Shown: piece by piece, positions 48,056 to 53,920 of the stretch
Layout: each line of letters opens with the position of its first letter
How positions within the stretch are numbered: the stretch's first letter is position 1
Assembly: GCA_003058525.1 (NCBI GenBank)
Contig: QBVD01000048.1
Coordinates: 1-64,000, forward strand
From: a gamma proteobacterium symbiont of Ctena orbiculata
GTDB lineage: Bacteria; Pseudomonadota; Gammaproteobacteria; Chromatiales; Chromatiaceae
DNA length: 64,000 nt
Direction of reading: 5' to 3'
The notes under the pieces: model-generated
The model's input: the letters and a program-made list of their open reading frames with translations, nothing else
The model's database searches: none
What the model was told of the DNA's origin: nothing
Program-made: the position numbers and the translations under genes

Positions 48056-48070
48056 CGGGATCCTTGATTT

Positions 48071-48085
48071 GTTCTCCGGTTGTTC
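48071..48085 (-). promoter_or_regulatory. Candidate SOS box facing lexA (GTTC-N7-GTTC)
   Basis: GTTC at 48071-48074 and GTTC at 48082-48085 are separated by exactly 7 bp. The box lies 16 bp before the lexA ATG. Direct-repeat boxes of this spacing are the alphaproteobacterial LexA format. Autoregulation of lexA is expected. Confidence 0.65.
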
Positions 48086-48102
48086 TCTATTCTATACCAG
48101 GA

Positions 48103-48117
48103 GAACAGGAAGAGAAC
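48103..48117 (+). promoter_or_regulatory. Candidate SOS box facing the MrfA-like gene (GTTC-N7-GTTC on the minus strand)
   Basis: GAAC at 48103-48106 and at 48114-48117, 7 bp apart, read as GTTC-N7-GTTC on the opposite strand. It overlaps the region just before the helicase ATG at 48122 and mirrors the lexA-facing box 17 bp away. A repressor bound to both would shut both promoters. Confidence 0.65.
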
Positions 48118-48121
48118 AACC

Positions 48122-50521
48122 ATGACTAGTCCCATTGCAGCCATAACTGCCACAAAGCCGGTTACCCGGCTTGATCCAGCCGACCATTTTGCCGCCAAAT
48201 TGCGTAGCGAATATGGAGAGCGTATCACAGGCGAACTGATACTCCCCGCCAAGCAGGGTAACTACCGCCCACTGCCCGATGATCTCGACCAGCGGCTCGC
48301 CGATGCCTTGCAAAAGCACGGGATCAAACGACTCTACACGCATCAGGCTGCGGCCTGGGAATCGGTACGGAATGGTCGGCATACAGTAATCGTCACCCCT
48401 ACGGCATCAGGTAAGACCCTCTGCTACAACCTGCCGGTACTGCAGGAGGTGCTGCAGGCGCAGGCCAAAGCCCTTTACCTTTTCCCCACCAAGGCCCTGG
48501 CCCAGGACCAGGTGGCCGAGTTGACTGCCCTCAACCAGGCCGCCGAACTGGGCCTACGTACTTTCACCTTTGATGGCGACACGCCGGGGGATGCGCGCAA
48601 GGCGGTGCGGACCCGTGGTGATATGGTGCTCTCAAATCCGGACATGTTGCACCAGGGGATACTGCCCCACCACACCAAATGGGCTCAGTTTTTCGAGTCC
48701 TTGCGCTATGTGGTGATCGACGAAATGCATACATACCGCGGCGTATTCGGCTCCCACGTTGCGAATGTGATGAGGCGTCTGCGGCGTATCTGTCGCTTCT
48801 ATGGCTCAGACCCTCTGTTCATCCTCTGCTCCGCCACTATCGCCAATCCCGCCCAACTGGCGCATGAACTGATCGGAGACGAAGTCAATGCAATTACCGA
48901 GAGCGGCGCACCGCAGGGAGGCAAGCACCTGTTATTGTGGAACCCGCCGGTGGTCAATGCCGATCTCGGCATGCGTGCATCCGCCCGTTCCCAGACCACA
49001 CGTATTACCAAACTGGCAATGGGTCAGGGGCTAAAGAGCATTGTCTTCGCCCGCTCACGCCTGATGGTTGAAGTACTGACCAAGTATCTCAAGGATGCCT
49101 TTGACCGGGACCCCAGACATCCAGCCAGGGTAGCCGCCTATCGTGGCGGCTACCTGCCCGCTGAACGGCGCGATATGGAACGGCGACTGCGTGAAGGGCA
49201 ACTCGACTGTGTGGTCTCCACCTCAGCGTTGGAACTGGGAGTGGACATCGGCGCCCTCGATCTCTGTGTCCTCAACGGTTATCCCGGCACTATTGCCGCC
49301 ACCTGGCAGCGCCTGGGACGCGCCGGCAGACGCCAGCGCACAGCGGTTGGCGTGCTGGTGGCCAGCAGCCTGCCGCTGGATCAATACATTATTCGCAATC
49401 CCGACTTCTTCCTTGGCGCCTCACCGGAACAGGCACGTATCGATGCCGATCAGTTGCTGATCCTGCTTGATCATGTTCGCTGCGCCGCCTTCGAACTGCC
49501 GTTCAAGGATGGAGAGCGGTTCGGCGACCAACCGCTGAGCGAGTTACTCGCCTATCTGGAGGAACATGGCATCCTGCACCGGGAGGCGGATGAGTGGCAC
49601 TGGATAAGCGACAGCTACCCCGCCAACAGTATCAGCCTGCGATCGGTGGCGGAGGGTAATTTCGTGGTGGTGGATACAACCGGGGGCGGAAAAACCGTGA
49701 TTGCCGAAGTCGACTACAGTTCCGCACCGATGACCATCCATGAAGGCGCCATCTACATGGTTCAATCAACTCCCTATCAGGTTGAGCGACTCGATTGGGA
49801 GGGACGCAAGGCATTCGTTACCCGCACCCGAGCCGATTACTACACCGATGCCATAGACTATACACGCCTTAAGATTCTGGAGTCTTTCGAGGAGCACGAG
49901 TATGACCGTCATGGCGTGGCCCAGGGTGAGGTCCATCTTGTCAAGCGCATAACCGGCTACAAAAAGATTCGCTACTACAGTCACGACAACGTGGGCTACG
50001 GCAAGATCGAGCTACCGGATCAGGAGATGCACACCACCGCCGTCTGGTGGCAGATAAATCCACAGGCGCTGGAGGCTGCATTCCACTCACGACAGACTGC
50101 CCTGGACGGCTTTCTCGGCGCCAGCTATGCACTTCATATCGTCGCCACCATGCACATGCTTTCCGAACCCGGAGATATCGGCAAGGCGGTGGGTGACGGC
50201 AACGCCCGCTGGTTCGCCACAGTACATGCCGGTGGACGGGGAGAGTTGCGCAACAGGGAGGACCAGCGAATTGATCCGGCGCAGCTGGATCGCTTCACTC
50301 CCACGCTGTTTCTCTACGACAACTATCCTGGAGGCATCGGACTGTCATCACCGCTTTGCGAGAGCCGTGAGACCATCGTTCATGAAGCGAAGCGGCTTGT
50401 CGTTGACTGCAGCTGTAACCATGGCTGCCCCAGCTGCATCGGCCCTATCCTGGCCAGCGACGAGATGCGGGGCTACTCGCCCAAACAGGCCGCACTCGAA
50501 GTGCTTTCACTCCTAATGTAG
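48122..50521 (+). CDS. MrfA/YprA-like DEAD/DEAH helicase with C-terminal DUF1998
   Basis: 799 residues from MTSPIAAITATKPVTRLDP; the ATG at 48122 follows AGGAAG. Helicase motifs are PTASGKT, DEMHTYRG (DExH), CSATIANP (SAT), STSALELGVDIGALD and QRLGRAGRRQ. The C-terminal zinc-type region has DCSCNHGCPSCIGP, the four-Cys cluster of the DUF1998 domain. Bacillus MrfA has the same layout and repairs mitomycin lesions with MrfB. The downstream gene is MrfB-like, so the pair is probably an SOS-linked repair operon. The call is by domain layout and context. Confidence 0.9.
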   Translation: MTSPIAAITATKPVTRLDPADHFAAKLRSEYGERITGELILPAKQGNYRPLPDDLDQRLADALQKHGIKRLYTHQAAAWESVRNGRHTVIVTPTASGKTLCYNLPVLQEVLQAQAKALYLFPTKALAQDQVAELTALNQAAELGLRTFTFDGDTPGDARKAVRTRGDMVLSNPDMLHQGILPHHTKWAQFFESLRYVVIDEMHTYRGVFGSHVANVMRRLRRICRFYGSDPLFILCSATIANPAQLAHELIGDEVNAITESGAPQGGKHLLLWNPPVVNADLGMRASARSQTTRITKLAMGQGLKSIVFARSRLMVEVLTKYLKDAFDRDPRHPARVAAYRGGYLPAERRDMERRLREGQLDCVVSTSALELGVDIGALDLCVLNGYPGTIAATWQRLGRAGRRQRTAVGVLVASSLPLDQYIIRNPDFFLGASPEQARIDADQLLILLDHVRCAAFELPFKDGERFGDQPLSELLAYLEEHGILHREADEWHWISDSYPANSISLRSVAEGNFVVVDTTGGGKTVIAEVDYSSAPMTIHEGAIYMVQSTPYQVERLDWEGRKAFVTRTRADYYTDAIDYTRLKILESFEEHEYDRHGVAQGEVHLVKRITGYKKIRYYSHDNVGYGKIELPDQEMHTTAVWWQINPQALEAAFHSRQTALDGFLGASYALHIVATMHMLSEPGDIGKAVGDGNARWFATVHAGGRGELRNREDQRIDPAQLDRFTPTLFLYDNYPGGIGLSSPLCESRETIVHEAKRLVVDCSCNHGCPSCIGPILASDEMRGYSPKQAALEVLSLLM

Positions 50522-50536
50522 TGTCAACAGGTCATA
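50519..50536. repeat. Degenerate palindromic repeat at the helicase stop
   Basis: TAGTGTCAACAGGTCATA resembles the inner end of the MITE terminus (TTAGTGTTAACAGGCCCTA). Its first bases are the TAG stop of the helicase gene. Similar placement is seen at hemF and at the end of the exonuclease gene. Confidence 0.45.
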
Positions 50537-50543
50537 ACCGACA

Positions 50544-51761
50544 ATGACACTCGGAACAAAACTCAGCCGTCTGAGGGCACTGAAAAAGGATCGAGGGCAA
50601 CAGCCTGTTGCATCTGCGACGGATCTGCGACATCGCTTGGCACGGATCGACCGGGCACGACTTTCTGATGATGCGAAAGGGCGGCGACAAGAGTCAATAG
50701 AGGAGAGACTGGCAAAACAGCTGAAGGGGTACCAAATCAGCGATGGTCTGATCAAGATACAGCGTCATATACCCCTGCATGGATCAATGGGCCGCCATCC
50801 TCTCTCGCTACTGCAACAACTACCCGTCCTGCCCGGAGACAGAGTGCTGGCCAACCGCCGCCAGGTCTACTTCGATACCGAAACCACCGGACTCTCGGGG
50901 GGTAGCGGCACCCTCGCCTTCCTGTTCGGTTTTGCAGTGATTGAGCAGGAGAACCTTGAGACAACCCAGTACCTGATCACCCGCTTTGCCGGCGAAAATG
51001 CCATGCTCGAGAGGATTAACAGTATACTCAGCCCAGATGATCGGCTGGTGAGCTATAACGGCAAGTGTTACGACATTCCCCTGATGAATACCCGCTACCG
51101 CATGCGGAATATACCAGCCATATTGGATCGGCTGCCTCACCTGGACCTGTTGCATGCCGTGCGCCGACTGTTTGGCCGCAATTGGCCGGATTGCCGGCTG
51201 ATGACGCTGGAACAGCGCCTGCTCGGTCTGAAAAGACACAACGACCTGCCGGGTTCGCAAGCCCCTGAAGCCTGGTTCGATTGTGTAACAACGGGCGCTA
51301 CGGCGCGACTAGCGCGGGTGGTGGATCACAATTTTCAGGATATCATCTCTCTCCCCATGGCCCACGCTGTCCTGTCTCGGGTGATTGAGCAACCGGAACG
51401 CCATAACGCAGACATTGCGGCCCTCGCCCGCTGGTTGACGGATAGCGACAAGACTGCTGCCTATACCTTGTTAATGCGCCAGCGGCAGACACTGTCGATC
51501 AGTGGCAAGAGGTTACTGGGTCGACTAGCCAGGCGTTTCGGCAACTGGGAGTTGGCAGTGGAGATATGGGAAGCCTTATCCCGGGGTGGCTGTCGACAAG
51601 CTACAGAACAACTTGCCAAATATCATGAGCACATCAGCAAGGATCTGGAGAATGCAAAATATTACTGTGAGCTGCTCCCCGTCGACGATGAGCAACGGCG
51701 GCGGTTGAACCGAATCTTACTCAAGCGCCATCGTCAGGAGATACAACCGGCACTGGATTAG
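50544..51761 (+). CDS. MrfB/YprB-like exonuclease with RNase H-like domain
   Basis: 405 residues. The central domain (about 105-275) is a DnaQ-type DEDD 3'-to-5' exonuclease fold: RQVYFDTETTGLSGGSGTLA holds the first two acids, SYNGKCYDIPLMNTRYRM the third, and the GATARLARVVDHNFQDIISL segment supplies His and the last Asp. The C-terminal helical part (about 290-400) resembles TPR. Bacillus MrfB has the same domain order and is encoded beside the helicase MrfA. The gene starts 22 bp after the helicase. Its stop codon lies in a repeat copy. Confidence 0.85.
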   Translation: MTLGTKLSRLRALKKDRGQQPVASATDLRHRLARIDRARLSDDAKGRRQESIEERLAKQLKGYQISDGLIKIQRHIPLHGSMGRHPLSLLQQLPVLPGDRVLANRRQVYFDTETTGLSGGSGTLAFLFGFAVIEQENLETTQYLITRFAGENAMLERINSILSPDDRLVSYNGKCYDIPLMNTRYRMRNIPAILDRLPHLDLLHAVRRLFGRNWPDCRLMTLEQRLLGLKRHNDLPGSQAPEAWFDCVTTGATARLARVVDHNFQDIISLPMAHAVLSRVIEQPERHNADIAALARWLTDSDKTAAYTLLMRQRQTLSISGKRLLGRLARRFGNWELAVEIWEALSRGGCRQATEQLAKYHEHISKDLENAKYYCELLPVDDEQRRRLNRILLKRHRQEIQPALD

Positions 51762-51777
51762 TGTTAACAGGCTCTAA
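51753..51777. repeat. Solo MITE end at the exonuclease stop
   Basis: This copy shares 23 of 25 bp with the right end of the 231-bp element (39081-39105), starting ACTGGATTAGTGTTAACAGG. The TAG stop of the exonuclease gene lies inside it, and it ends next to the stop of the convergent acyltransferase gene at 51774. Confidence 0.7.
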
Positions 51778-53786
51778 AGTGCCTTTTCGCATCTCTGCGT
51801 CAGTTCGATAGCCTGCTTGACATAATCCTTATACCATTCGTTGACGGTCAGAATAAATTCGGACAAGGACTCGGCATCATCCGGATCGTTTATGTAGTCG
51901 CTCACTTTGAAAGGGGGAAAGACTGTGGCCGCGGTACAGGTACGTGTCAGTCGCTTGTCGAAATTGGCGACCGCGATGGGTACGATCAGTGGCTCTATAT
52001 CGGCCGCCAGCGCCAGACGGAACACCCCGGCCTTGAATGGACCGGGTGACTCCTCGGTGTAGTAACAGCGTCCCTCCGGACAGATAATGATATTGTCCCC
52101 CTGTTGCAGCCTTTCCAGTGCCTGTTCAATGAACTGGCGGTTGCGTTGCTCGCGGGTCAGGTGATGATCACGATCCTCCTCATCGACCTCGCCAGGGTAG
52201 ACATAGAGATACTCAAGGCGGTCGAAATATTGTTGAAATCCGTACCAGTCGAGCTCCGGCTTCTTCACCACCCTGATCGGTGCTTCATGATATTTCGGGT
52301 AGATCACCATGCTCGACACGAAGTGGGTGTCCAGGGTTAGGCGAAAATCATTTGGCAGCATATTATCGGTATGGTTTTCCAGATGATTCATGATAAACAG
52401 ATGCCCTGAGGAGTCTGGCAGGTGCTCCTCGCCAGCCACGTTATAGTGGGTCTGCTCGAACAACGCCCGGAACGTTCGCATACAGTGATGTCGCACTTCC
52501 CTTGGCGTCTGATCCTCGGGAGCATTGGCAACGCTTTCATAAATACGCTGCAGTCCCTGATAAAAATGGAGTTCATCGTGCACCTTTTCCAGGATATCCA
52601 GAGACAGTCTTGCCAGGTTGCGCTCATTTTCATCCTCGCCATGATTACGGATCAGTTCCAAGGTACCGAACGCATCGGAGAGGGTCAGTCTGTTTTCCAA
52701 TAGATAGGGGATTTTATGCAGCGGCGAAGTCACATGCAGGGTAGCGGCATTCTGTTCCAGTAACGCCGTTACAGCCAATGTCTCTTTATGATAGCGCCTT
52801 GCAATCAATTGGGTACGGGCCATACGCAGCCGATTGCCGATCAACCAGATCACCCGTTCCATTAGTTCTGTTGCGAACAACGGTTCCCGGTGACACAGAG
52901 CCGTCAATGCTTCAGCTGTGAATACCAGGGCACAGACTGAATCACTGGCGATTGCGGATACCTGATAGTGATTGGGTTCGACCAAAGCGGACCAGCCGAA
53001 TGCCTGCCCTGTGCTCTCCAGACTATTGAGAAAAAAACAGATCTTGCCATCACTGCTGCAATACCAGAGTTCGATCCGTCCGCTGACAAGCAGGTAGAAC
53101 TTCTCCGCCTCACCTCCCTGCTGAAACAGTGTTGTGCCAGGGTTCACGCGAATCATTTGCCCCAATGACAACATGGATCGTAAATGATGATCTGACATGG
53201 CTTCAAAAAAAGTGACATGGCGCAGAAACCTGAAGGTTGACTCCTGATCGCTGCCCAGGTTTTCAAACTCGACAAGCGGGTTTGATCCCCGGGTTCTCAT
53301 TGCGGCAGCAGGTTCCACCATGTTTCTCCCTTCGACACCGCTACTGGCGATCAGGCGGTCCCTGTTATTTTCAAGTCGATGCGCCAGAACTATCGCCACA
53401 CGGCGTAAAAGCGTGTAGGCGATGAGCGGTGATCCTCCCATCAACTCAGTTAACAGTGTTCTCGGAATACGTATAAAACTGCATTCTGTTTCACAGCGTA
53501 CGGTCACCGTATGGCGATAGGGTGCGCGAAACACAGACCAGCCAATCAGTGCCCCAACCTCACTGTCGGTGCCGACAAGAAGATCATCCATACCTGCCAC
53601 ATGGATCAGAAACTGCACCTTTCCAGTTGCTAAAAAATAGAGTGCGATGGCACGATCATGCTGGTGCAGTAAAATCTCCCCTTGATCCATTTGCCGCACC
53701 TCGGAGCCTTTAGCCAGAAAGTCGATCACATCCCTGTCGATATCCTGGAAGAATGCAAGTTCGGAAAGTTCAGAGGCATCCATCAT
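51774..53786 (-). CDS. Two cyclic-nucleotide-binding domains fused to a PlsC-like acyltransferase
   Basis: 670 residues. Two Crp-like cNMP-binding domains (about 8-125 and 185-310) are followed by a helical linker and a C-terminal 1-acylglycerol-3-phosphate acyltransferase-like domain (about 450-665). The acyltransferase motif ICPEGRCYYTEESPGPFKAG fits motif III. The usual NHX4D is not intact (reads MNHLENHTDNM), so catalysis may be altered or the motif shifted. The fusion suggests lipid acylation controlled by a cyclic nucleotide. A start at 53786 follows AGGG. Confidence 0.8.
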   Translation of the reverse strand: MMDASELSELAFFQDIDRDVIDFLAKGSEVRQMDQGEILLHQHDRAIALYFLATGKVQFLIHVAGMDDLLVGTDSEVGALIGWSVFRAPYRHTVTVRCETECSFIRIPRTLLTELMGGSPLIAYTLLRRVAIVLAHRLENNRDRLIASSGVEGRNMVEPAAAMRTRGSNPLVEFENLGSDQESTFRFLRHVTFFEAMSDHHLRSMLSLGQMIRVNPGTTLFQQGGEAEKFYLLVSGRIELWYCSSDGKICFFLNSLESTGQAFGWSALVEPNHYQVSAIASDSVCALVFTAEALTALCHREPLFATELMERVIWLIGNRLRMARTQLIARRYHKETLAVTALLEQNAATLHVTSPLHKIPYLLENRLTLSDAFGTLELIRNHGEDENERNLARLSLDILEKVHDELHFYQGLQRIYESVANAPEDQTPREVRHHCMRTFRALFEQTHYNVAGEEHLPDSSGHLFIMNHLENHTDNMLPNDFRLTLDTHFVSSMVIYPKYHEAPIRVVKKPELDWYGFQQYFDRLEYLYVYPGEVDEEDRDHHLTREQRNRQFIEQALERLQQGDNIIICPEGRCYYTEESPGPFKAGVFRLALAADIEPLIVPIAVANFDKRLTRTCTAATVFPPFKVSDYINDPDDAESLSEFILTVNEWYKDYVKQAIELTQRCEKAL

Positions 53787-53920
53787 CACGATCACCCTTT
53801 CAAGAGCATGTCACTTATTATTGTCTCTTCTCAACATCGATGTGATTTGAATATTCAAACGACAATATTATTGGCCCTGCACCACTAACCACACCCCTAT
53901 TACTAATCTATAGTAGATAT

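Follow-up and report, generated by a model that had tools for sequence, protein, structure and literature searches.

A predicted LexA-mrfAB SOS module with mirrored direct-repeat boxes in a gammaproteobacterial symbiont of Ctena orbiculata

A lexA gene that diverges from homologues of the repair genes mrfA and mrfB was analysed in a 64,000-nucleotide stretch (the window; contig QBVD01000048.1, positions 1 to 64,000, assembly GCA_003058525.1) from a gammaproteobacterial symbiont of Ctena orbiculata. The locus appears to be a self-contained SOS module, in which the encoded repressor, LexA-A, would repress both itself and mrfAB; we give this reading, which includes the membership of LexA-A in a direct-repeat lineage and the recognition of a box base by its residue Arg39, a probability of roughly 0.8. 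We infer that LexA-A binds two mirrored GTTCTC-N5-GTTCTC repeats in the shared promoter region, where it would repress its own gene and the mrfA-mrfB operon, the repeats overlying possible promoter hexamers that were picked out by eye. From knowledge of these families, RecA filaments formed after DNA damage would trigger LexA self-cleavage, upon which lexA-A and mrfAB would both be switched on, and MrfA (a 3'-5' helicase) and MrfB (a 3'-5' exonuclease) would help to remove mitomycin-type lesions. The boxes, their conservation, the gene linkage, the LexA trees and the residue-to-base association described below were computed from sequence. The window locus is one case of a broader gammaproteobacterial LexA lineage, members of which often lie next to a single cassette for damage response: mrfAB, a Y-family polymerase, imuA-imuB or, on one plasmid, umuDC.

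A 66-bp spacer (48056-48121) separates the lexA gene from that of the helicase, whose ATG is at 48122. The pair of GTTC-N7-GTTC boxes described there in an earlier note on this DNA was confirmed by pattern search at 48071-48085 (+) and 48103-48117 (-), mirrored on the two strands. The extended form, GTTCTC-N5-GTTCTC, was present in the window at just these two sites, compared to a mean of 0.00 over 100 shuffles. When the spacer was shuffled 20,000 times with dinucleotides preserved, 71 sequences had GTTC-N7-GTTC on either strand and none had one copy per strand. Plain GTTC-N7-GTTC was weak alone, with four matches in the window versus 1.86 expected. The hexamers of the boxes were conserved across relatives while the spacer bases differed. 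The gammaproteobacterial box CTGT-N8-ACAG had no match in the window, a result of little weight since only 0.65 matches were expected.

Features of the lexA-A/mrfAB locus (positions in the window)
Feature	Position	Strand	Basis
lexA-A, LexA repressor, 198 aa	47459..48055	-	TIGR00498, PF01726, PF00717, alignment
Direct-repeat LexA box 1, GTTCTC-N5-GTTCTC (predicted)	48071..48087	+	pattern search, hexamer conservation
Direct-repeat LexA box 2, mirror of box 1 (predicted)	48101..48117	-	pattern search, hexamer conservation
Possible mrfA promoter: TTGATT, 18 nt, TATTCT; box 1 inside spacer	48064..48093	+	by eye, inference
Possible lexA promoter: TTGTTC, 17 nt, TATAGA; box 2 covers first hexamer and spacer	48091..48119	-	by eye, inference
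mrfA (yprA) homologue, DExH helicase, winged helix and MrfA Zn-binding domain, 799 aa	48122..50521	+	6znp, PF00270, PF09369
mrfB (yprB) homologue, DEDDh exonuclease, 405 aa	50544..51761	+	8un9, PF13482

The LexA-A protein scored 174.9 bits against TIGR00498 (cut-off 110.95) and contained the PF01726 DNA-binding domain and the PF00717 S24 protease domain. The closest named relative of the symbiont was Candidatus Thiodiazotropha endolucinida (Chromatiales, Sedimenticolaceae), whose LexA is 98% identical. The AAG cleavage site and the SGDSM and ATLKR motifs aligned with solved LexA chains, and the Ser and Lys of these two motifs are taken to be the catalytic pair. In agreement with the earlier note, which had remarked that the recognition helix is unlike that of E. 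coli, the motif SRGSLHKH, beginning at residue 38 and having Arg39 at its second position, aligned in register with SPNAAEEH of the solved E. coli-type chains. With its non-SPNAAE helix, in a window that has no CTGT-N8-ACAG site, LexA-A is not of the canonical gammaproteobacterial type. One LexA-A copy elsewhere (locus L063, on contig C124 of genome G033) had an Ala at the expected catalytic Ser and lacked the usual Ala-Gly cleavage motif, and may not be cleavable.

Conservation of the locus was determined in 22 genomes of the genus and in a class sample of 274 gammaproteobacterial genomes. LexA-A was present in 14 of the genus genomes and mrfA (E ≤1e-30) in the identical 14, the remaining eight having neither. 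In all 14 the two genes were adjacent by coordinates, and the mirrored boxes were kept in 14/14 of their spacers. At the MrfA threshold of 1e-60 used for the class sample, a match was obtained in 13 of the 274 genomes; mrfA was divergent from LexA-A at nine of these 13 loci (the symbiont's own included), and at least one strict box was found in the shared spacer in 9/9. The mrfA promoter region carries a predicted LexA box that is kept in relatives, as would be expected of an SOS regulon member, with the exception of two genomes (G134 and G165, below). On this basis of conservation across genomes, LexA control of mrfAB is the best reading of the locus.

A LexA-A type gene was also noted on a plasmid of Methylobacter sp. 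YRD-M1 (NZ_CP091426.1, L342); its product was 56.9% identical, with the same SRGSLHKH helix, and the gene diverged from umuD and a Y-family polymerase gene across a spacer holding GTTCTCTTTTTGTTCTA, a GTTCTC-N5-GTTCTA box.

The two genes beyond the spacer had been matched in the earlier note to the Bacillus MrfA/MrfB pair, and this identification was upheld. The helicase aligned with B. subtilis YprA/MrfA (6znp; E 7.9e-222), including the Cys cluster, and contained the PF00270 and PF09369 domains, the latter being the MrfA Zn-binding domain (MZB/DUF1998). The second gene product, which has an RNase_H_2 domain (PF13482), had MrfB (8un9; E 9.6e-26) as its sole Protein Data Bank (PDB) match at E ≤0.001. 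B. subtilis MrfB has DEDDh residues and a tetratricopeptide repeat (TPR) domain (PMC11194089); in the window homologue the corresponding D111, E113, D177, H262 and D266 were invariant in 10/10 aligned relatives, and no Pfam TPR match was obtained for a C-terminal TPR domain. A structure model built from three sequences was helical in the C-terminal part but, with a mean pLDDT of 43.7, was too poor to use. Like the B. subtilis genes, the window pair encodes a helicase followed by a DEDDh exonuclease with the Cys cluster and catalytic residues retained; unlike them, it adjoins its own lexA. That the pair instead forms an anti-phage or other YprA-type system, and not a repair system, is highly improbable, given that the helicase has YprA/MrfA itself as its closest relative of solved structure, that the nuclease matched no PDB entry but MrfB, and that a preprint assigns MrfB-associated helicases to a repair branch (PMC12458937). 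The words LexA and SOS are absent from the main text of two papers on MrfA/MrfB (PMC11194089, PMC12458937).

The earlier note had also proposed looking in the genome for further GTTC-N7-GTTC boxes and for a second LexA with CTGT-N8-ACAG sites. In the genome around the window (4.74 Mb, 112 contigs) there were two TIGR00498 matches, neither of them E. coli-type. The second LexA, LexA-B (contig C57), is encoded by a gene that has mirrored direct-repeat boxes of the same kind and lies upstream of a Y-family polymerase gene. Further plain GTTC-N7-GTTC sites were present (109 matches), but these were fewer than the 129 of the reversed control, and the plain pattern was rejected as genome-wide evidence. 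LexA-B was present in 20 of the 22 genus genomes, and a Y-family polymerase gene (at least 50% identity) adjoined 15 of 26 LexA-B genes. After the polymerase gene of one LexA-B locus there is a 138-aa open reading frame (ORF; L010:5081-5497) with no Pfam or NCBIfam match, relatives of which occupy this place in several genomes.

To place LexA-A among other LexA proteins, promoters were compared between groups. The alpha-type group comprised rows with an SKSG helix, drawn from a phylum sample that was used because the rows listed by a search through plasmids were mostly UmuD/MucA; its assignment to the Alphaproteobacteria is our reading. A strict GTTC-N7-GTTC box was located within 120 bp upstream of 16/23 LexA-A, 23/26 LexA-B and 15/18 alpha-type genes and 0/20 canonical genes, the LexA-A and LexA-B loci having been picked by similarity to the window LexA, so that group sizes are not frequencies. 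The reversed control pattern was found in 0, 1, 1 and 0 rows, respectively. Conversely, CTGT-N8-ACAG was located in the same interval for 14/20 canonical genes and for none of the LexA-A, LexA-B or alpha-type genes. Prior to counting, L111_1 (a second copy in its genome, box present), the false hits L056_2 and L061_2, and L250 (the locus already counted as L105) were dropped; L108 and L235 were placed in the canonical group, and the weak LexA matches L003 and L004, which had no box, were not used. Two further loci, L247 and L241, were treated separately as GTAC type, the box type of Pseudomonas putida LexA2.

In an unrooted full-length tree of 88 proteins, from which L239, L244, L224 and L225 were left out, LexA-A, LexA-B and the alpha-type proteins were separated from the canonical and GTAC-type proteins with support of 100/100. 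Consistent with this result, a tree of only the protease domain (87 rows and 124 columns, with a bootstrap that had not settled; L063 omitted for want of a recognisable cleavage motif) repeated this split at 100/99. It is therefore unlikely that the shared box stems from convergence confined to the helix. The window LexA is thus a member of a lineage within the Gammaproteobacteria that clusters with alpha-type LexA and whose usual box is GTTC-N7-GTTC. The direct repeat is the LexA box of the Alphaproteobacteria among 17 reported LexA motifs (PMC8565304), and a lateral gain of an alpha lexA by Acidobacterium capsulatum is named in a title cited in PMC3323433; the trees, being unrooted, are compatible both with old paralogy and with transfer. 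An independent origin of the repeat within the Gammaproteobacteria, following a LexA duplication, would be in keeping with the missing root and with the reported shift of LexA motifs after duplication (PMC8565304), but is improbable given that all three groups lie on one side of a fully supported branch, in the protease domain as well, albeit with few columns and an unsettled bootstrap. In its repeat and its side of the tree LexA-A resembles the alphaproteobacterial proteins; it differs from them in its gammaproteobacterial host and in having two mirrored repeats in one spacer.

A third LexA, LexA-C, was found in five genus genomes (G284, G282, G283, G276 and G294; loci L294-L298). LexA-C has the helix SVGTVHRYV, with Val at position 2, and its boxes are TTTCTC-N5-TTTCTC. 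In the two genomes tested, its gene was divergent from ORFs encoding ImuA (over the cut-off) and an imuB-like protein that resembles Y-family polymerases; similar ORFs occupied the same place in the other three. The arrangement resembles the P. putida lexA2-imuA-imuB-imuC cassette, in which a second LexA likewise travels with one damage-response cassette (PMC3901139). The window locus differs from that cassette in its direct-repeat box and mrfAB cargo; in the relatives, LexA-C adjoins imuA-imuB and has TTTC-N7-TTTC boxes.

Before 38 not-yet-inspected loci were scored, it was predicted, and put on record, that base 1 of the half-site is read by helix residue 2. At the first scoring, for which a narrower helix motif matched 26 of the 38, there were 21 Lys/Arg rows in which a good box was present, and 17 of these had G alone at base 1. 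Three Gln rows had two G among 12 half-sites, the rest being A, T and C, and the rule that Gln reads A failed. Scoring was then performed blind to bases 1 and 4 on a set in which 35 of the 38 later loci were kept after removal of canonical ones and 81 of 106 rows had a scorable box. G was in the majority at base 1 in 59 of 69 rows with Lys or Arg, compared to 0 of 12 with other residues (five of these 12 being from one genus); the corresponding values were 19/23 and 0/5 for the later loci alone and 40/46 and 0/7 for the earlier ones. The rule that stands is that Lys or Arg goes with G at base 1 and other residues do not, and helix residue 2, Arg39 in the window LexA, probably recognises the base with which each half-site begins. 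A second coupling, between helix residue 6 and base 4, was dropped because there were too few cases.

Several results weigh against the proposal of a LexA-A-controlled mrfAB module. A consensus promoter scan of the spacer found no promoter. Neither box type was present within 400 bp upstream of recA, so control of recA by a direct-repeat or CTGT-N8-ACAG box was not seen, and GTTCTC-N5-GTTCTC with at most one mismatch had 12 sites in the symbiont's genome compared to 14 for the reversed control, which gave no support for a large regulon; in both respects, a recA gene that has no such box and an own-genome regulon that looks small, the system is unlike that of alphaproteobacterial LexA. There was no strict box within 120 bp in 7 of 23 LexA-A promoters, although one of these (G264) has a pair further upstream. 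In G134 mrfA was unlinked and had no strict box, in G165 it was present with neither LexA-A nor box, and in G036, also listed among the exceptions, the mrfA locus ended at a contig end. With respect to the residue rule, 10 of the 69 Lys/Arg rows had no G majority at base 1, and the phylogenetically independent pairs, two on well-supported branches and six on the best tree, were too few to reach significance, although the two agreed with the rule; in the phylogeny-aware test the opposite direction was obtained in 0 of 200 random pairings.

Two further adverse points bear on which genes the boxes serve, and on which LexA acts there. First, no mrfA was nearby in 12 of 20 fetched LexA-A regions, most of which still had a box; LexA-A is therefore not tied to mrfAB everywhere. 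The boxes might then serve LexA autoregulation only, both mirrored copies acting on lexA, while mrfAB shares the spacer and is constitutive or driven by another signal. This explanation is decidedly improbable: in G084 mrfA and lexA-A lie on different contigs, yet mirrored boxes still precede mrfA, in G264 the box pair is beside mrfA and 285-253 bp from lexA, and the two genes co-occur genome by genome in the genus. Second, LexA-A and LexA-B have the same box, which does not single out the LexA that acts at mrfA. Control of mrfAB by LexA-B, alone or jointly with LexA-A, is possible though rather unlikely, and its joint form overlaps with control by LexA-A. The boxes in LexA-B promoters are of this kind too, and in the LexA-B helix a Lys stands where LexA-A has Arg39, but the presence of mrfA tracks LexA-A and not the more widely distributed LexA-B, and its physical linkage is with LexA-A. 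The reading in which LexA-A represses itself and mrfAB is thus retained.

The extent of direct-repeat boxes across the genus was then assessed. The pattern GTTCTCNNNNNGTTCTM had 68 matches in the 22 genomes, compared to seven for the reversed pattern. On the basis of coordinates and contexts, 28 of these sites were at lexA-A/mrfA, 21 at LexA-B genes and one at a LexA-B-like fragment, with two at intI ORFs (one of them shortened), three at IS91/ISCR-type transposase ORFs and 13 left unassigned. Two genus genomes, G290 and G292, had neither direct-repeat boxes nor any protein matching the LexA query. GTTCTC-N5-GTTCTC or a near-match was seen directly upstream of IS91/ISCR-type transposase ORFs, some of them shortened (L009:328, L048:3030, L116 and L148).

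Integron integrase genes were considered separately, and 24 of the 30 integron-integrase-like loci returned for the genus were examined. GAGAAC-N5-GAG(A/T)A(C/A) was directly upstream in seven of the 24, all with a KSPFL start and one with a strict repeat; the genomes of these seven are close relatives, so they do not count as independent cases. Loci with the direct-repeat box instead of CTGT-N8-ACAG include L050:605-1591, L131 and L156. The symbiont's own intI scored 470.8 bits (cut-off 265); no repeats of at least 30 bases were detected near it, and therefore no cassette array was shown. Among 30 intI loci from the class sample, seven had an SPFL-type start, and CTGT-N8-ACAG preceded five of these (G033, G080, G128, G122 and G052); of the others, G201 had neither box and G009 had too little upstream sequence. 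In the reported survey of 1,103 intI promoters with 15 motifs, the sites found were of E. coli type only (Cambray 2011; PMC3108266). Some of the genus intI genes resemble the SOS-controlled integrases of that survey in having a LexA-like box directly upstream, but the box is a direct repeat, and these genes would be an exception to the E. coli-type-only pattern.

A wider proposal, which we hold to be somewhat better than an even bet, is that a second, alpha-type LexA lineage spreads in the Gammaproteobacteria as plug-in SOS modules, each damage cassette (mrfAB, Y-polymerase, imuA-imuB or plasmid umuDC) having a LexA of its own. The reading of one base by one helix residue (G by Lys/Arg, T by Val, mixed for Gln) would let modules within a cell become insulated from each other; in Thiodiazotropha the lineage would have replaced LexA of the E. 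coli type, and mobile elements, intI among them, would have had their operators rewritten to the direct repeat. The earlier note had regarded an SOS-controlled MrfAB module beside its own LexA as new to its author; no report of one, of SOS control of mrfAB or of a GTTC-N7-GTTC LexA in the Gammaproteobacteria was found in searches of open-access papers, subscription papers being outside the search. If these readings are true, SOS control would extend to MrfAB repair, a link undescribed in the open-access papers found, and a direct-repeat LexA system would work across a range of Gammaproteobacteria, beside or in place of the E. coli type. They would also provide a simple, directly testable residue-to-base rule for the divergence of LexA operators, and would bear on an inference made in the literature, that LexA controls integron integrases through the E. 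coli-type box only (PMC3108266).

Beyond mrfB, the window contains an ORF at 51774-53795 with an acyltransferase domain and two cyclic-nucleotide-binding stretches.

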